Below are positions 21,608 to 60,191 of a stretch of DNA of 64,000 bases, in pieces. The stretch is from assembly GCA_029210725.1 (NCBI GenBank), contig JARGFM010000013.1:1-64000 (forward strand). Direction: 5' to 3'. The notes beneath the pieces were generated by a model. It did no database searches. It was given only the letters and a program-made list of their open reading frames with translations, and was not told the origin of the DNA. The DNA comes from Bacteroidales bacterium. GTDB lineage: Bacteria > Bacteroidota > Bacteroidia > Bacteroidales > GCA-2748055. The number at the start of each line of letters is the position of its first letter. Positions within the stretch are counted from its first letter, which is position 1. The translations under genes and the position numbers were made by a program.

Positions 21608-22915
21608 TTATCTGAGGGCCCCGGCAGAAACACGATTGCCATTTCTGTAACCCACCACAAATGCGCCCACGACCTGCGGATAAGTATCAACTCTCTCTTT
21701 GTACGAAAGAGCCTGCTCATAGGTTTGGAAAGGACCAACCGTATATTTAAAGAAACCCTGATGCTGCTCAACAAATACCTCCCTGTCCACTCCTATCTGC
21801 CTGTAAAATGCATTGGCATCAAAGGCATTCAGATTGGCCGACAGTTGTACCCGGAAATAGCTTCCTGTGCCAGGTTCAAGTACCTTCGTATTGGCTATCA
21901 GCTTTTCCGAAACCCGTCCTTCACTGGATGTGCTGACAGGAGGACTGCTCTCTCGCTCCAGGGCTGTTATTGTTCCTGTACTTCCCGACGGAATCGTTCC
22001 CTTTTCAAGAAGAGCACGTTTCTGAGACTGGTTCAGATTTTCCAGGGGCACATCCATCTCTACCACCTCGGTAACCCTGTTTTCATTTCCAGCTATATAG
22101 GTCAGCAATCCTTCCACCAGCATATTCCCCTGAGGTTCATTCTGTTTGGGCACAAGCCTGTAAACCACCTCAAATTCCGGCTGCTCAGGCAAGTTCATCC
22201 ATATGAACTTTACAGTTGAGGCTGCATGTGAAACGATTCCATCATTTGAATTCACCTCTTCAAAAAGATAGCCCGATGGGATGGTCTCCTCAATTTTGGT
22301 ATATTTGCTTCCAGCGGGAGTATTTATTAAAAGCCGAACCTGGTAAGCACCGCTGGACTGCAGCTCAGGCTTTTGCCTGATAGCCATCGTAAAAGTGGTC
22401 CCCTCCGGAGCCGTGGAAGGAGCCACAACATCCCACCCCCTGAAATCCCCGATATCGAGCATTAAGCCGGGATCGATGGAGCTGTTGGGTACGATGGTGA
22501 TCTCCCTTTTTTGATCGAAATTCAGAAATTTACGTTCGTCTTCAACCACATAAGCAAAAACACCTCCCAATGTGAATGATCCCTTGAGCCTTGGATCCAC
22601 AGACACTTTGTAGGATACAGAAATTTCGTTTGTATTGGGCATTTTCAGCCATATGATCCTCACCCTTTGTTCGTCAAAACTGAAATCTGCATTGGGGGAG
22701 CTCACATTCGTGGCAGACAGCCCCATAGGAAGGTCCTGAGAAAAACGGGAATAGTCTGTAAGTGAGCCCTTTTTGATGGTCACGGTCACTGTAAAATCCT
22801 CTCCGGCGTTCACCCTCAGAGGATGATCTACGGATAGTTCCACCTCCTGTCCGGAAAGAGAGTATGACAGGAGAAACATGGAAACGGCCAGACAATAAGA
22901 CATGTACTTCATCAT
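21608..22915 (-). CDS. Secreted protein with BatD-like beta domains and C-terminal SPOR-like domain
   Basis: This 435-residue protein has a signal peptide (residues 1-22, ending SLSGQ). Two or three immunoglobulin-like segments resembling the N-terminal part of BatD/oxygen-tolerance proteins follow, with VELSVDHPLRVNAGEDFTV and FNVD-like strands. The C-terminal region (about 350-425) looks like SPOR (SYFRVQLSANLNAFDANAFY, then FFKYTVGPFQTYEQALSY). SPOR domains bind peptidoglycan at division sites. The central region repeats the pattern IPSGYLFEEVNSNDGIVSH followed by VKFIWMNLP, echoing the earlier DLPMGLSATNVSSPN and VRIIWLKMP, so it contains an internal duplication. It is first gene of a pair with the barrel protein at 20231-21583. 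Confidence 0.78.
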   Translation of the reverse strand: MMKYMSYCLAVSMFLLSYSLSGQEVELSVDHPLRVNAGEDFTVTVTIKKGSLTDYSRFSQDLPMGLSATNVSSPNADFSFDEQRVRIIWLKMPNTNEISVSYKVSVDPRLKGSFTLGGVFAYVVEDERKFLNFDQKREITIVPNSSIDPGLMLDIGDFRGWDVVAPSTAPEGTTFTMAIRQKPELQSSGAYQVRLLINTPAGSKYTKIEETIPSGYLFEEVNSNDGIVSHAASTVKFIWMNLPEQPEFEVVYRLVPKQNEPQGNMLVEGLLTYIAGNENRVTEVVEMDVPLENLNQSQKRALLEKGTIPSGSTGTITALERESSPPVSTSSEGRVSEKLIANTKVLEPGTGSYFRVQLSANLNAFDANAFYRQIGVDREVFVEQHQGFFKYTVGPFQTYEQALSYKERVDTYPQVVGAFVVGYRNGNRVSAGALR

Positions 22916-23000
22916 AAAGAAGGGTTAATTCACGATACAATGTACAAAATAATTTCTCAAATAGTCCCCGTAATTACTAACACTGAGCCATTAGAGCACT

Positions 23001-23711
23001 CTAGAAATTAGGACTCAGGAGATATTTTGAGTAGAACTTGTTGATTACACTCACAGCATCTTCCGCAGTGTCAACAATAGTAAAAAGACCCAGATCCTCC
23101 TGACTGATATTCTTCTGTTCCTCCTGTACCACATTTTCGATCCAGTCCACCATTCCTTTCCAAAAACCGGAACCAACAAGCACGATGGGAAATCGTCCGA
23201 TCTTCCCGGTCTGAATAAGGGTCGCCGATTCAAAAAATTCATCCAGGGTCCCGAATCCCCCTGGCAATACGATAAATCCCTGAGAATACTTCTGAAACAC
23301 CACTTTTCTGACAAAAAAGTGCTTGAATGTGATCAACTTATCCGCATCAATGTAAGGATTGGAGCCCTGCTCAAAAGGGAGATGTATGTTTAATCCCACA
23401 CTGACCCCATCACCCCTCATTGCCCCTTTATTGGCTGCCTCCATAATACCGGGGCCTCCTCCGGTTATAACCCCGTAGCCACTCTGGGTCAATTGAAATG
23501 CAATCTCATCCGCCAGTTTATAATACTTGCTATCCGGATTTGTCCTGGCCGAACCAAAAACGGAAACGCAGGGACCGATGGAGGTCATTTTTTCGAAACC
23601 CTCCACAAATTCAGCCAGGATTTTAAAAATCTGCCAGGAATCAGAAGCTTTTATCTCATTCCAGGTTTTCTGCTTAAAGGCCTTCTTGATCTTATCTTCA
23701 TTGGCAATCAT
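23001..23711 (-). CDS. LOG-family Rossmann-fold protein (TIGR00730, nucleotide 5'-monophosphate phosphoribohydrolase type)
   Basis: This 236-residue protein has the two LOG signatures GGGPGIMEAANKGA and PGGFGTLDEFFE, whose Glu and Arg residues form the active site. LOG enzymes cleave the N-glycosidic bond of nucleoside monophosphates, including cytokinin precursors; in bacteria many act as general purine nucleotide hydrolases. The N-terminal 45 residues, SWQIFKILAEFVEGFEKMT, resemble the helical lead of the longer bacterial branch. It follows uvrA on the minus strand after 33 bases and is probably co-transcribed. Confidence 0.9.
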   Translation of the reverse strand: MIANEDKIKKAFKQKTWNEIKASDSWQIFKILAEFVEGFEKMTSIGPCVSVFGSARTNPDSKYYKLADEIAFQLTQSGYGVITGGGPGIMEAANKGAMRGDGVSVGLNIHLPFEQGSNPYIDADKLITFKHFFVRKVVFQKYSQGFIVLPGGFGTLDEFFESATLIQTGKIGRFPIVLVGSGFWKGMVDWIENVVQEEQKNISQEDLGLFTIVDTAEDAVSVINKFYSKYLLSPNF

Positions 23712-23744
23712 TATCTTCTGCTTTTTATGAACAATTTAATATAA

Positions 23745-26576
23745 TTATCTCGAAATCAGCTCATCCCTCAGGAAATTACCTGTATAGCTATCCTTCACTC
23801 CGGCAAGCTCTTCAGGGCTCCCTTCGGCAAGAATGCTTCCTCCCTGGCTGCCACCCTCCTTGCCCAAATCAATGATGTGATCGGCCACCTTTATGACATC
23901 CATATTATGCTCGATCATGATCACCGTGTTGCCCCTGTTTACCAGCCTGGCAATTACTTCCAGCAATACCCGGACATCCTCAAAATGAAGACCCGTTGTA
24001 GGTTCATCCAGGATGTAAAGAGTTTTGCCGGTATCTTTTTTTGCCAGCTCGGCTGAAAGCTTCACCCGTTGTGACTCTCCTCCCGAAAGAGTAGTGGAAG
24101 GTTGCCCGAGTCGGATATATCCCAGTCCAACCTCCTGGAGGGTAAATAATTTCCTGCGTATGGAGGGTATACTGGAGAAGAACTCCACGGCCTGGTTAAT
24201 GGTCATCATCAGAACATCATTGATATTTTTGTCCTTGTACCTGACCTCCAGAGTTTCCCTGTTATAACGTTTTCCGTTGCACTCCTTGCAGCGTACATAT
24301 ACATCAGGCAAAAAATTCATCTCAATGGTTTGAAGGCCGGCACCACCACAGGTTTCACAACGCCCCCCTTTCACATTGAAGGAGAATCTGCTTGCTTTAT
24401 ATCCCCGTATCTTTGCATCGGGAGTCTGTTCAAACAACTTCCTGATATCGCTGAAAACGCCCGTGTAGGTCACCGGATTTGACCTGGGGGTCCGGCCCAG
24501 GGGACTCTGGTCCACTTCAATCACTTTATCAACCAGCTCAAGGCCCTCCAGTGACTCATAAGGAAGCGGCTCCCTGTTGGACCGGTAAAGCTTCTGGCTT
24601 ATAATGGGGTGCAGTGTTTCATTAATTAATGTGGATTTGCCGCTTCCGCTGACCCCTGTAACACAGATAAATTTCCCCAGCGGAAAAGCAACACTCACAT
24701 GCTTAAGGTTATTGCCGGATGCTCCGCGAAGGATCAGCAGCTCCCCGCTTCCGGATCTTCGCTTTTCAGGTACAGGGATCTTCTTTGTCAGGTTCAGGTA
24801 CTGGGCGGTAAGCGTCCGGCCCTTCAGAATCTGCTCCGGTGAACCACTTGCCACCAACTCCCCTCCCAGCCGGCCTGCCCCCGGACCCAGATCCACAATA
24901 TGATCGGCAGAAAGGATCATGTCCTTATCATGTTCCACCACGATCACTGAGTTGCCCTGGTCGCGAAGACTCTGGAGTGAAGCAATAAGCTTTCTGTTAT
25001 CCCGCTGATGCAGACCGATACTCGGTTCATCCAGTATATAAAGCACATTGACCAGCCGGGAACCAATCTGTGTAGCCAGACGGATGCGCTGACTCTCTCC
25101 CCCGGATAAAGAACGGGCACTGCGCTGCAGCGAAAGATAGTTAAGCCCCACATCCAGTAAAAATCCAAGCCTGCTTCTGATCTCTTTCAGGATGTCCCTG
25201 GCAATGATATTTTGCCGATCGTTCAGATAATCCTCCATGTGGCTGAACCACCGGGAAAGCTCCCCAATATCCATGGCCGACAGATCAGCGATATTCTTTT
25301 CATTGATCCGGAAATATAACATTTCTGCCTTCAGCCTGTTCCCTTTACAAACAGGGCAGGTCACTTTCCGGATAAATTGCCTTGCTTGCTGTTTTCCCTG
25401 CAATCCGTTTCCCTCTCCTGCATGGTTCTGTATATGGTTGATAATGCCCTCGAAACTTAAAAAATAGTTGGAGTCGGCTCCCAGAGGGGTGTTCTGCAGT
25501 TTCAGGGGCTCCTCCGATCCGAAGAGAATACAGTTCAGAGCCTGTTCGGGGATCTCCTTCACCGGGATATCCAGGCTAAAACCGTACCTGGACGCAATGG
25601 CTTCCAGTTGCCAGAATATCAGGGAATTTCTGTACTTGCCAAGGGGCTCCAGGGCCCCGCTGCGGATGCTTTTACTATCGTCCGGAATGATTTTACGAAT
25701 ATCCACGTCATTAATGGTCCCCAGTCCGTTACAGTTCGGACATGCTCCCTGTGGCGAGTTAAAGGAAAAACTGTGAGGAGCCGGTTCATTATAGGAGATT
25801 CCCGAAGTGGGACACATCAGCTGGCTGGAGAAATAGCGGGGCTCACTTCCATCCTTCTCCATGATCATGGTAACTCCCTTGCCCTGTTTCAAGGCTGTTG
25901 AGAGGGACTTTCTGAGCCTTTCCCGGTCCTTGTCCCGGACAGTGAGCCGGTCTACAACCACCTCAATATCATGATTTTTATAGCGGTCTATACGCATCCC
26001 GGGGATGAGCTCCTCAATCTCACCATCGATCCGGGCATAGATATAACCATTCCGCCTGACCTGCTCAAAGAGCTCCCGGTAATGACCCTTTCGTCCCCTC
26101 ACCACCGGAGCCAGGACATAGATTTTTTTCTCCAGAAAAGCATCCATAATGATGTTCAGGATCTGATCCTCGGTGTACTTCACCATCTTCTCGCCGGTCA
26201 CATAGGAGTACGCTTCGGATGCCCGTGCAAACAATAGTCTCAGAAAATCATAAATTTCGGTTACCGTTCCCACGGTGGAACGTGGATTCTTGTTGGTCGT
26301 TTTCTGTTCGATGGATATCACCGGACTCAGGCCGGAAATCTTGTCCACATCGGGACGTTCCATATTGCCCAGGAACTGGCGGGCATAGGCACTGAGGGTC
26401 TCCATATACCTTCTCTGTCCCTCTGCATAGATGGTATCAAAGGCCAGGGATGATTTACCACTTCCACTTAAACCGGTAATGACCGTCAGGCAGTTCCGGG
26501 GTATAGTAACATCAATGTTTTTCAGATTGTGAACCCGTGCACCCAGCACTTCTATTTGTTGCTCTTTCTTTCTCAC
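23745..26576 (-). CDS. uvrA: Excinuclease ABC subunit A (UvrA)
   Basis: This 943-residue UvrA has the first Walker A GLSGSGKS (residues 35-42), ABC signature SLSGGESQRIRLATQIGS, the second Walker A GVSGSGKST, the second signature TLSGGESQRVKLSAELAK, and both Cys4 zinc modules (CPNCNGLG, CPVCKGNR; CETCGGAG, CKECNGKR). It recognises bulky DNA damage with UvrB in nucleotide excision repair. Length is normal and there is no sign of the truncated UvrA2 form. It is transcribed leftwards with the LOG gene after it; a lytic transglycosylase gene ends 18 bases upstream of its start and could share the transcript. Confidence 0.98.
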   Translation of the reverse strand: MRKKEQQIEVLGARVHNLKNIDVTIPRNCLTVITGLSGSGKSSLAFDTIYAEGQRRYMETLSAYARQFLGNMERPDVDKISGLSPVISIEQKTTNKNPRSTVGTVTEIYDFLRLLFARASEAYSYVTGEKMVKYTEDQILNIIMDAFLEKKIYVLAPVVRGRKGHYRELFEQVRRNGYIYARIDGEIEELIPGMRIDRYKNHDIEVVVDRLTVRDKDRERLRKSLSTALKQGKGVTMIMEKDGSEPRYFSSQLMCPTSGISYNEPAPHSFSFNSPQGACPNCNGLGTINDVDIRKIIPDDSKSIRSGALEPLGKYRNSLIFWQLEAIASRYGFSLDIPVKEIPEQALNCILFGSEEPLKLQNTPLGADSNYFLSFEGIINHIQNHAGEGNGLQGKQQARQFIRKVTCPVCKGNRLKAEMLYFRINEKNIADLSAMDIGELSRWFSHMEDYLNDRQNIIARDILKEIRSRLGFLLDVGLNYLSLQRSARSLSGGESQRIRLATQIGSRLVNVLYILDEPSIGLHQRDNRKLIASLQSLRDQGNSVIVVEHDKDMILSADHIVDLGPGAGRLGGELVASGSPEQILKGRTLTAQYLNLTKKIPVPEKRRSGSGELLILRGASGNNLKHVSVAFPLGKFICVTGVSGSGKSTLINETLHPIISQKLYRSNREPLPYESLEGLELVDKVIEVDQSPLGRTPRSNPVTYTGVFSDIRKLFEQTPDAKIRGYKASRFSFNVKGGRCETCGGAGLQTIEMNFLPDVYVRCKECNGKRYNRETLEVRYKDKNINDVLMMTINQAVEFFSSIPSIRRKLFTLQEVGLGYIRLGQPSTTLSGGESQRVKLSAELAKKDTGKTLYILDEPTTGLHFEDVRVLLEVIARLVNRGNTVIMIEHNMDVIKVADHIIDLGKEGGSQGGSILAEGSPEELAGVKDSYTGNFLRDELISR

Positions 26577-45875: not shown

Positions 45876-46688
45876 ATGAATCTCAGGAACAGGATATTTG
45901 TGATCATTTTCGGCACCGATACCCGGGCCGGAAAAACCTTTGATGTGCTGCTGCTCTGGATGATTATTCTGAGCGTCACTGTAGTAATACTGGAGAGTGT
46001 TTCCTCTCTCATGGAAGCTCATCACCAGATTTTTATTTCCACTGAATGGTTTTTTACCATTGTTTTTAGTCTGGAGTATTTACTGAGAATATATAGCTCC
46101 CCCCGGCCATGGAGGTATATCAGCAGCTTTTACGGGATTATTGATATTATGGCCATTCTTCCCACCTATCTGGGACTGATTTCTGATCAAGCCACCTTCC
46201 TGCTTACCATCCGCGCGCTCAGGCTGCTCCGAATGTTCAGGGTGTTAAAGCTGGGAAGATATATCAGTGAAGCTGCCATTCTGGTGCGGGCGTTGAAAAT
46301 GAGCATCCATAAAATAATCGTATTTTTCGGTGCCGTGATGAGCCTGGTTCTGATCCTGGGCTCTATCCTCTACCTGATTGAAGGCGAGGAGAACGGATTT
46401 ACCTCCATTCCTCAGAGTATTTACTGGGCCATTGTGACTGTGACGACTGTCGGCTACGGTGATCTTGCCCCGGTCACGGTTCTGGGAAAAATCATAGCCT
46501 CCATGGCTATGCTCACTGGTTACTCCATCATTGCGGTTCCCACCGGGATCATAACCGTGGAAATGGGAAAGGCTGCAAAAGCGAGCCTGAATAGCAGACC
46601 GGCAAGCTGCACAAATTGTGGACATAAACAACACGATAAGGATGCCCGTTACTGCAAGATCTGCGGCACCAGGATAGTGGATTCGTAA
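45876..46688 (+). CDS. Voltage-gated-type potassium channel with C-terminal zinc ribbon
   Basis: This 270-residue six-helix ion channel has a voltage-sensor S4 helix (residues 111-129) with basic residues at every third position (R113, R116, R119, R122, K125, R128). The pore loop has the K+ selectivity filter T-V-G-Y-G-D (191-196). After S6 a short cytoplasmic tail ends in a zinc-ribbon C245-x2-C248-x11-C260-x2-C263. Prokaryotic Kv channels usually end in a coiled coil or a nucleotide-binding domain, so the zinc ribbon is unusual. It follows the ferredoxin terminator and has no close partner gene. Confidence 0.92.
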   Translation: MNLRNRIFVIIFGTDTRAGKTFDVLLLWMIILSVTVVILESVSSLMEAHHQIFISTEWFFTIVFSLEYLLRIYSSPRPWRYISSFYGIIDIMAILPTYLGLISDQATFLLTIRALRLLRMFRVLKLGRYISEAAILVRALKMSIHKIIVFFGAVMSLVLILGSILYLIEGEENGFTSIPQSIYWAIVTVTTVGYGDLAPVTVLGKIIASMAMLTGYSIIAVPTGIITVEMGKAAKASLNSRPASCTNCGHKQHDKDARYCKICGTRIVDS

Positions 46689-46874
46689 CAGTATGGTATA
46701 TGTCTTGATTCGGGTAGTTTAATCAAAAAATACTACGCTTTCAGGAAACGAACTGAAGCTTCCTGCAGCTATACACGCATGCTCTTTTATTTCATATCCT
46801 GCTTTAAACTTTCATCCTTCGAATCTGTCTAACTCTCATAACACTAAGCTCAACCTGTACTAAATCAACTGACC

Positions 46875-49196
46875 ATGAAAACATGCAACACCTTTTTACT
46901 TCTTTTTACAGGGCTCGCCCTTCTGACCCTGAGCGGATGCGGCCCCAAATATACCGTTGAAGACCAAAATGGTATATCCATCGTCCAAAACAAAGGCGGC
47001 CAGACCCTGGGGTTTTCTTCCGCTTCCGGAGTGACTCTGATCGAGAATAATGGCTTTGCCTTTAAGGACCTGAACAAGAATGGTGAACTCGACGTTTATG
47101 AAGACTGGAGGCAGGCCGTGGACGACAGGGCCAGGGACCTGGTCAGCCAGATGAGCGTGGAGCAAATGGCCGGACTGATGCTTTACAGCGGTCACCAGGC
47201 TATTCCGGCCGGAGGCCGTGGCCGCTTTGGCGCAACCTACGGGGGTAAATCCTTTCCGGAGAGCGGGGCCGCGCCCTCCGATCTTTCCGATGCCCAGGTG
47301 AAATTCCTTTCCGAGGACCATCTGCGTCATGTGCTGATCACCTCTGTGGAGAGTCCCAAAATTGCCGCAGAGTGGAACAACAACGCCCAGCAACTGGCGG
47401 AGGGACTGGGATTGGGTATTCCGGTGAATACCAGTTCAGACCCACGCCACAGAAGCGTGGCCGATACAGAATACAATGCCGGTTCCGGCGGGACCATTTC
47501 CATGTGGCCGGCCACCCTGGGAATCGCAGCCTCCTTTGATCCGGAGCTGATGAAACAATTCGGAGAAATCGCCTCGATAGAATACCGGGCACTGGGAATT
47601 GCCACAGCCCTTTCGCCGCAAATCGACCTGGCCACAGAACCCCGCTGGAGCCGTTTCAGCGGTACCATGGGCGAAGATCCGGACCTAGCTTCCGATCTGG
47701 CCCGTGCCTATGTGGATGGCTTTCAGACTTCCACCGGTGAAGATGAGATCCTGAATGGATGGGGATATCACAGCGTAAATGCCATGGTCAAACACTGGCC
47801 GGGGGGAGGACCCGAAGAGGGGGGCCGTGATGGACACTTTGGCTATGGGGCCTATGCGGTCTATCCGGGTAACAATCTGGAGGACCATCTGAAACCCTTT
47901 ACAGAAGGAGCCTTTAAACTGGAGGGAGCCACCGGCATGGCCTCCGCGGTGATGCCCTACTACACCATTTCCACCGATGTCGATACCAAATACGGGGAAA
48001 ATGTGGGCAATGCCTACAACAAATATATCATTACTGACCTCCTGCGCGATAAGTACAGGTACGATGGCGTGGTATGTACGGACTGGGGCGTTACCGGAGA
48101 TGTAAGCAGCGTGGAGGAGTTCTCGGGAAAATCCTGGGGCGTGGAAACCCTGAGTGTGGCCGAGCGCCATTACAAGGTCATCGAGGCCGGAGGGGATCAG
48201 TTTGGCGGAAACAATGACATGGGGCCGGTGCTGGAAGCATACAAGATAGGAGTGGCCGAACATGGAGAGGAATATATGAAAGCCCGTTTTGAAAAATCGG
48301 CCATCCGGCTTTTGCGCAATATATTCCAGGTGGGTCTGTTTGAAAATCCTTACCTGGTCCCGGACGAGACAGCAAAAATCGTGGGGAATCCCGAATACAT
48401 GAAAGCAGGATACGAAGCGCAGTTGCGTACGGTGGTCATGTTGAAAAACCATGAACAGGCCCTTCCCCTGGAGAAGCAATTAAAGGTTTACATTCCCCAG
48501 CGCTTTGTCCCCGGAGGAAGAAACTGGTTCGGACAGACCGCTCCGGACAGATGGGTGGATGCTTTCAGCAAGGAGATCGTAGCCAAATACTACCAGGTGG
48601 TGGACAAGCCTGAGGAGGCCGATTTCGCGCTTGTAGGAATCTCCAGTCCCGATGGAAGGGTCGGATATGAAGGTGCGGACCGGGAGAAGGGAGGCAATGG
48701 CTATGTTCCCATTTCACTGAAATACGGTCCCTACAAGGCAGAGTATGCCCGCGAGACCAGTCTGGCCGGTGGAAGTCCCTTTGAGGATTTCACCAACCGC
48801 AGCTACAAAAACAAAACCACTACCGCTCTGAACATCCCCGATATGACCCTGGTGGTGGAGACCCGGAACCAGATGGGTGAGAAGCCGGTGATCGTCCTGG
48901 TCAACGTGTCCAAACCCATGGTATTTGAAGAAATAGAACCCCTGGCCGACGCCATCCTGGTTCATATGGGTGTGCAGGACCAGGCCCTGCTGGATCTGGT
49001 TTCCGGTGAAGCCGAACCTTCGGCCCTTCTGCCATTCCAGATGCCGGCTTCCATGAAGACCGTCGAAGAGCAGTTTGAGGATGTCCCCAGGGATATGGAG
49101 TGCTACACCGACGCTGACGGCCATGTGTATGACTTTGCTTTCGGATTAAACTGGAGCGGAGTGATCAGCGACGACAGGGTTTCCAGATACAGGTAA
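46875..49196 (+). CDS. Glycoside hydrolase family 3 lipoprotein
   Basis: This 773-residue GH3 protein has a lipoprotein signal (L-S-G-C, Cys22) and an EF-hand-like loop DLNKNGELDVYED (residues 65-77). The first (alpha/beta)8 domain carries the substrate-binding MVKHWPGGGPEEGGRDGH and the nucleophile Asp in VCTDWGVTGD; the second alpha/beta-sandwich domain includes VVMLKNHEQALPL and VLVNVSKPMVF. GH3 enzymes release glucose, xylose or N-acetylglucosamine from beta-linked chains; this large lipoprotein form suggests action in the periplasm or at the surface. It sits apart from the SusCD locus, with its own terminator, and no other polysaccharide enzyme is near. Confidence 0.94.
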   Translation: MKTCNTFLLLFTGLALLTLSGCGPKYTVEDQNGISIVQNKGGQTLGFSSASGVTLIENNGFAFKDLNKNGELDVYEDWRQAVDDRARDLVSQMSVEQMAGLMLYSGHQAIPAGGRGRFGATYGGKSFPESGAAPSDLSDAQVKFLSEDHLRHVLITSVESPKIAAEWNNNAQQLAEGLGLGIPVNTSSDPRHRSVADTEYNAGSGGTISMWPATLGIAASFDPELMKQFGEIASIEYRALGIATALSPQIDLATEPRWSRFSGTMGEDPDLASDLARAYVDGFQTSTGEDEILNGWGYHSVNAMVKHWPGGGPEEGGRDGHFGYGAYAVYPGNNLEDHLKPFTEGAFKLEGATGMASAVMPYYTISTDVDTKYGENVGNAYNKYIITDLLRDKYRYDGVVCTDWGVTGDVSSVEEFSGKSWGVETLSVAERHYKVIEAGGDQFGGNNDMGPVLEAYKIGVAEHGEEYMKARFEKSAIRLLRNIFQVGLFENPYLVPDETAKIVGNPEYMKAGYEAQLRTVVMLKNHEQALPLEKQLKVYIPQRFVPGGRNWFGQTAPDRWVDAFSKEIVAKYYQVVDKPEEADFALVGISSPDGRVGYEGADREKGGNGYVPISLKYGPYKAEYARETSLAGGSPFEDFTNRSYKNKTTTALNIPDMTLVVETRNQMGEKPVIVLVNVSKPMVFEEIEPLADAILVHMGVQDQALLDLVSGEAEPSALLPFQMPASMKTVEEQFEDVPRDMECYTDADGHVYDFAFGLNWSGVISDDRVSRYR

Positions 49197-59614: not shown

Positions 59615-59795
59615 GCCCTGAGGCTGTCAACTTCCTGTACGTTATCGTACACCTCTGTTACACTTTCGTTCGAAATTGATCCCTGTTAACATTTTTACAA
59701 AGTGAGCATATATCATTGCCTGTTAGGCATTTATGGATTTTGGCACGACTTATGAAAATAGAAAGGAGCATTACATCTATAAATTTGCATGAGTC

Positions 59796-60191
59796 ATGAA
59801 AACAACTAAGTTAATCGTAGTCTTCCTGCTGCTTACCCTGGGAGCTGCAATAAACAGACAGACAGGCCAGGAACGTTTTATTACTGCTGATTACAGTGTT
59901 AAAAACAACAGGTTTGAAGACCGGGTCAGCGGATTCTTGAGCAGAACGGAGAACATCATTAGCAAGGAGAACATGGAACCTGCGGTATATAAGTATTACT
60001 TCTATGATCATGCCGACATCGTTTACGAAGAGGTCTTAGGACTGGAAGAGTGGATGACAACTCCCTTCGAAAGTGCTGTAGCTGAAAATGAGATGACCCT
60101 GGAAGAGTGGATGACCACGCCCTTCGAAAGCAGGTTAACGGAGGAGGAGCTCACCATCGAACCCTGGATGCTTTCTCCATTCAATAGCTAA
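59796..60191 (+). CDS. Small secreted protein with three 19-residue W-M-x-x-P-F repeats
   Basis: This 131-residue protein has a signal peptide (residues 1 to about 19: MKTTKLIVVFLLLTLGAAI), a charged and aromatic middle and a C-terminal half built of three repeats. The cores are LEEWMTTPF at 83-91, LEEWMTTPF at 102-110 and IEPWMLSPF at 121-129, exactly 19 residues apart. The first two repeats are also nearly identical in DNA (30 of 32 bases). The chain is strongly acidic. I recall similar short W-M-x-x-P-F motifs in small exported Bacteroidota proteins but know no function. A TAAATTTG box lies only nine bases before the start codon. Confidence 0.85.
   Translation: MKTTKLIVVFLLLTLGAAINRQTGQERFITADYSVKNNRFEDRVSGFLSRTENIISKENMEPAVYKYYFYDHADIVYEEVLGLEEWMTTPFESAVAENEMTLEEWMTTPFESRLTEEELTIEPWMLSPFNS
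60042..60185 (+). repeat. Three tandem 57-base coding repeats
   Basis: Units start at 60042, 60099 and 60156. The first two share CTGGAAGAGTGGATGAC followed by ACTCCC or CGCCC and TTCGAAAG, with two differences in 32 bases; the third is diverged. The 57-base period keeps the reading frame. Confidence 0.85.

Follow-up and report, generated by a model that had tools for sequence, protein, structure and literature searches.

The window analysed here is a stretch of 64,000 nucleotides (64 kb) from a Bacteroidales bacterium. One of its genes belongs to an undescribed and unannotated family of small, apparently exported Bacteroidales proteins that carry two to eight Trp-Met motifs. Judged by sequence, this family is real. 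The gene itself is predicted, by strong inference, to be transcribed from a sigma-54 promoter. This predicted promoter is new here and would be the strongest clue to the role of the gene. With middling confidence, the protein can be read as an exported, disordered array of docking motifs that is controlled by an alternative sigma factor and has a role in envelope stress.

The reading frame runs uninterrupted from an ATG start codon to a TAA stop codon over 131 codons (Table 1). A small acidic protein of 131 residues had been claimed in the original prediction, and this was borne out, the mature part having a pI of 4.2 and a net charge of about -15. The claim that the protein is exported is supported as well, since a signal-like N-terminus is present family-wide. 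In relatives, this segment ends in FGQ or YGQ (alignment A1), as predicted by the Bacteroidetes Q-rule, in which Q follows the signal peptide of exported proteins (PMC5837995). The N-terminus of the window protein is hydrophobic and resembles a signal but shows no clear Q site, and the cleavage position is approximate. It is probably exported. The linker that precedes the repeats contains a semi-conserved segment, PAVYKYYFYDHADIVYEE.

Table 1. Features of the repeat gene and of the region upstream, in window coordinates.
Feature	Position	Strand	Remarks
Predicted sigma-54 (RpoN) promoter, TTTGGCACGACTTATG	59739..59754	+	-24 TGGCAC 59741-59746; -12 TG 59753-59754
Whole gene	59796..60191	+	131 aa repeat protein (P0001), probably exported; relatives found
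Sec signal-like N-terminus	59796..59870	+	about residues 1-25; MKTTK and hydrophobic stretch; helix 3-20 in AlphaFold model
Variable linker, residues 26-82	59871..60041	+	alignment A1; low pLDDT
Repeat unit 1, LEEWMTTPFESAVAENEMT	60042..60098	+	
Repeat unit 2, LEEWMTTPFESRLTEEELT	60099..60155	+	
Repeat unit 3, IEPWMLSPFNS	60156..60188	+	at C-terminus; C-terminal position common to family

The motif E-x-W-M-x-x-P-F is found at residues 84, 103, and 122, which confirms three W-M-x-x-P-F repeats with a spacing of exactly 19 residues, or 57 nucleotides. When the mature sequence was shuffled 200,000 times, three copies of WMxxPF never appeared, and at least one copy appeared in 89 cases. The array is C-terminal, as had been proposed, but it does not make up half of the protein; its 49 residues (83-131) are nearer 40%. 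Tandem Repeats Finder, at a score of 40, did not call the array in the window gene.

The first two units had also been described as nearly identical in DNA and as a recent duplication. Near identity holds for the core LEEWMTTPFES, in which 3 of 33 nucleotides differ, all of them synonymously. It does not hold for the whole unit, where 14 of 57 nucleotides differ (four synonymous and five non-synonymous codons), and a recent duplication is therefore not supported. The third unit has 13 differences in the 33 nucleotides of the core. Spacer codons between the motifs have changed freely while the core was kept. Because only the core is kept, its differences are synonymous, and the spacers have diverged, the pattern points to selection on the motif rather than to fresh duplication. 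Constraint on the motif can be read from the sequences themselves, as can the gene, its repeats, the family, and the variation in copy number.

The core shared throughout the order is L-x-[ILV]-E-x-W-M (phi-E-x-W-M), with aromatic residues downstream. The invariance of E/D, W, and M is by construction, since these residues belonged to the search motif; the hydrophobic residue at -1 and the Leu at -3 did not. The P-F pair is the version of the window's lineage, and elsewhere the aromatic residues are shifted downstream by one or two positions (YF, YW). Thus, of the Trp, Met, Pro, and Phe that were claimed to be conserved, W-M is found order-wide and P-F is lineage-specific. The spacing between motifs is typical of a lineage (19, 18, 16, 25, 21, and so on) yet differs among lineages, and ranges from 13 to 46 residues within and between them. 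The array usually extends to the C-terminus, with the last W-M lying at most 8 residues from the end of the chain in 51 of 74 proteins.

Neither the window protein (pLDDT 60, pTM 0.20) nor a six-unit relative (pLDDT 57, pTM 0.19) is given a fold by AlphaFold with an input of about 20 sequences, a depth at which a real fold can be missed. In both models, helices are confined to the signal and the motifs; those of the window protein outside the signal are at residues 104-110 and 123-129, in the second and third motifs. The suggestion of short linear motifs without a fold is supported by the low pLDDT and pTM and by the variable spacing, and the mature chain is likely to be largely disordered. 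A folded solenoid is unlike this family, which has no constant repeat length (13-46 residues) and a pTM of 0.19-0.20. A closer parallel is found in the endocytic adaptors with DPF and NPF motifs. These are multivalent linear-motif proteins in which short motifs occur in variable copy number along a disordered chain. The family likewise has repeated aromatic and acidic motifs in a disordered chain, but it is bacterial and apparently exported, and its motif is unrelated.

The window protein has no match in Pfam or NCBIfam. Searches of PDB sequences and of PHROGs returned chance-level matches only (E about 1 and E 0.14, respectively), and a literature search with motif strings returned no relevant paper. 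No homologue was found among 50,697 records of phages and 72,556 of plasmids, in which respect the gene differs from phage or plasmid cargo. A protein search and the exact WMxxPF pattern found no second family gene in the same genome.

Relatives occur in 24 of the 28 genomes of the taxonomic family, in all six genera, and in most genomes of the genus. Within the order, 37 of 393 genomes are positive by a three-repeat profile. An independent three-motif DNA pattern was also positive in 37 of 393, with 0 matches for the reversed control pattern. Among 394 further genomes of the phylum (A2 profile and three-motif DNA pattern), the sole match was a low-complexity TGGATGATG run in one search, and a phylum-wide family is rejected at this sensitivity. 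At this sampling, the family is restricted to the order Bacteroidales and is patchy within it. The named matches (A3 profile, 16 loci) are uncultured Bacteroidales or Bacteroidota assemblies.

The relatives are about 70 to 240 residues long, with two to eight units, and their genes frequently form tandem pairs or triplets. The claim that repeat number varies holds even at the same syntenic site, and motif homologues in other species, for which a check had been proposed, were found across 14 families of the order. In one relative (L061:9278-9625, G015:C34), a stop codon stands precisely where the last motif should have its Trp (...EVVEIEE-stop), possibly through a recent truncation of the array.

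The predicted promoter lies 57 nucleotides upstream of the gene. It is the only exact match to TTTGGCAC-N6-TG within the window, and the C that would follow the -12 TG has not been retained. When the upstream regions of family genes are aligned, the pattern TTTGGCAC-N5-[ATG]TG is seen 37 to 88 nucleotides before the start codon. The sigma-54 pattern precedes 55 of 86 family genes, compared with 6 of 733 other genes of the same loci. A strict form precedes 37 of 86 family genes and none of the 733 neighbouring genes. Gene-level P values for such counts ignore kinship among family genes and are descriptive only; since these genes are related, the values overstate independence. In 11 of 14 taxonomic families, a sigma-54 site is found before at least one family gene.

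The window also has a match to the Bacteroidetes housekeeping promoter TAnnTTTG, at 59780. This candidate was rejected. Such matches are rarer before family genes (6 of 87) than before others (141 of 557), and in the alignment the position falls in a conserved leader that is not a promoter (...GCAAGAGTC).

The sigma factor itself is encoded in the same genome (PF04552 at G000:C2:84893), together with about eight sigma-54 activators (PF00158), and of 42 genomes tested, 40 have rpoN. The remaining two (G648 and G004), one of which is only 83% complete, gave no rpoN hit, and their sampled family genes have no sigma-54 site.

Another type of site, the ECF-type GTAAC-N15-18-[CA]GTC, precedes 13 of 86 family genes and none of the 733 neighbouring genes. 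It is carried by f22, f126, and two genes of f93. ECF-type sites replace sigma-54 sites in f22 and f126, which suggests that these genes stay under an alternative sigma factor even though the factor itself differs. G648, in which rpoN was not detected, offers an example from nature of such a replacement: it has at least three repeat genes (L172, L183, L235), two of them behind ECF-type sites. Under the patterns used, 20 of 86 family genes have neither promoter type, notably those of f110, most of which lack a recognisable site, and f97. By eye, some of these 20 are near-misses or have a misassigned start (L076, L070).

In the bacterium's own genome, the strict sigma-54 pattern has 15 matches, compared with 7 for the reversed control. 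One site precedes groES-groEL, and another precedes a HlyD/MacA-like gene with a divergently oriented sigma-54 activator gene next to it. A third site precedes a MacB/FtsX-like permease, about 55 nucleotides before the likely MSLL start and about 21 before an upstream in-frame GTG. In two relatives, htpG is preceded by a similar site. Targets of sigma-54 in Bacteroidota include groES, grpE, Hsp90, and COG0577 permeases, according to the part of a genome-scale study drawn on here (PMC12316311). As far as that part goes, the window gene shares the -24/-12 promoter at the correct distance, and groES, the FtsX/MacB-type permease, and the htpG of relatives match classes enriched in Bacteroidia. The study scored known COGs, and the same part of it does not mention an exported motif-array protein. 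The company of groES, MacA, and MacB, taken with these targets, suggests that the response is probably one to protein-folding and envelope stress.

Sites in the same genome also precede two other exported proteins, one of which is basic and has its own repeats. The basic one, with PAQKVQNPQVRKQNAR repeats (L276:3660-4138; G000:C27, about 46,660-47,137), stands behind an exact TTTGGCAC-N6-TG site and has no Pfam match; it may be a charge-opposite companion of the family. A candidate regulator of this regulon is a 414-residue sigma-54 activator (L274:2278-3522; G000:C10, about 22,777-24,021). Its AAA+ domain begins almost at the start of the protein, and no receiver domain was seen. In its run, it is joined by lipoprotein, TPR-like, and SecG-like proteins, and then by the sigma-54-preceded groES-groEL. 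Elsewhere (G000:C36:29815-30316), a sigma-54 activator domain is spread over two frames with an internal TGA, marking a broken or frameshifted gene.

In the genus, the repeat gene lies between rsmI and dnaB, and the window has the same neighbours. Distant relatives in f14 and f97 (L171, L173) also adjoin rsmI. For these relatives at least, the shared site and the shared motif speak for common descent and against convergence. Across the 14 families, neighbours are heterogeneous, and a fixed partner gene was rejected. The repeat gene of f116 lies next to an operon of an ABC ATPase and a MacB-like permease. Genes for DUF2147 proteins lie directly beside repeat genes at unrelated sites in f14 and f98 (L174, L182, L185, L176, L186).

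In the preferred reading, stress sensed by a sigma-54 activator would switch on transcription from the sigma-54 promoter, and the protein would be produced alongside GroESL and the MacA/MacB-like envelope pumps as part of one response. Once exported through Sec, the mature chain, acidic and largely disordered, would bear three phi-E-x-W-M-x-x-P-F docking motifs, each of which would probably form an amphipathic helix of one to two turns upon binding. In the envelope, the motifs could together provide multivalent binding to a single conserved hydrophobic groove, or else to hydrophobic patches that are exposed there, with repeat number tuning avidity. A role in envelope stress is favoured because of the alternative-sigma sites, the stress-type company, and the GIN/PspC/PadR and MacB-like neighbours. 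A broader version, held more tentatively, is that the family forms a Bacteroidales-specific class of envelope-stress effectors, defined by motif arrays, alternative-sigma control, a single conserved envelope receptor, and tuning by repeat number.

The protein may instead be a stress-induced periplasmic holdase or sponge, whose acidic Trp, Met, and Phe motifs would have no single dedicated receptor and would associate without specificity with unfolded proteins, membranes, or cationic antimicrobial peptides. This is somewhat unlikely. It agrees with a regulon of chaperones and MacB/MacA-like pumps, with the operon beside the f116 gene, with the missing fold in both AlphaFold models, and with a median net charge of -19 among 88 members. 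However, that charge varies from -5 to -52, and the order phi-E-x-W-M is strictly kept over families, whereas a sponge would need composition only. The chaperones Spy and CpxP are likewise small, exported, and stress-induced, as is predicted for this family, which has no Pfam match to them. Spy is a folded helical cradle.

It is unlikely, too, that the repeat protein docks on the beta-helix of a GIN (Toastrack) lipoprotein or on PspC and thereby sets a PSP/Lia-like response. The idea draws on the neighbourhoods of several families. In f1 relatives, a GIN gene is divergent from the repeat gene; in f14 and f29, it lies directly downstream; f22 has an operon of repeat gene, PspC, GIN, and PadR (L229); and the repeat gene of f126 is followed by PadR and PspC, a pair also seen in f22. 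By a local GIN/DUF2807 profile, 14 such genes lie at a distance of one gene, one at two, and two at three, with none among about 370 genes at a distance of four or more. The f22 and f29 cases account for 2 of the approximately 12 sites added once the idea had taken shape, where about 0.06 would be expected, an estimate from about 4 GIN genes and an assumed 3,500 or so genes per genome. In E. coli, psp is sigma-54 dependent.

Toastrack (DUF2807/DUF4097; it unifies DUF2807), PspC, and HAAS-PadR have been described as PspA-free membrane-stress modules (PMC11237479). By Pfam and NCBIfam, the window protein contains none of the PspA, PspC, and Toastrack domains, and most family sites, including the window, have no GIN or PspC neighbour. 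GIN as an obligate partner was rejected, as 20 GIN genes elsewhere have no adjacent repeat gene, and GIN is also present in genomes without the family. The link is suggestive but not defining. In most members of the genus, a divergent GIN/DUF2807 gene lies between rsmI and the repeat gene; it is missing from the window (59615-59795), and the GIN genes of this genome are located on other contigs (C18, C15, C6).

A structural protein of the surface or envelope, such as an adhesin or a cargo anchor without a stress role, is very doubtful. Variation in repeat number is typical of surface proteins, and a DUF2807 protein has been reported as a P. gingivalis adhesin (PMC10949514). Against this stand the alternative-sigma sites and the result that no anchor and no C-terminal T9SS-like domain were detected with Pfam and NCBIfam; the Ig-like C-terminal domain of about 80 residues that T9SS cargo carries was not found by these or by AlphaFold. 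Least probable of all is a precursor from which each unit is excised as a signal or defence peptide: the tandem similar units, the Sec signal, and an array that reaches the C-terminus would fit, but no dedicated protease or modification enzyme was found near repeat genes, the spacers have no constant cleavage motif, the core is conserved order-wide, unlike peptide signals, and the modification enzyme and dedicated exporter of a multi-core RiPP precursor are absent beside the window gene, which has rsmI and dnaB as neighbours.

The predicted sigma-54 site, the company of chaperones and MacA/MacB-like genes, and the sporadic GIN, PspC, and PadR neighbours provide a first functional handle on this family. 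They make it a candidate effector of a poorly known envelope-stress response in Bacteroidales, a role that can be tested directly. An invariant motif in a variable chain would be an easy bait for a conserved receptor.
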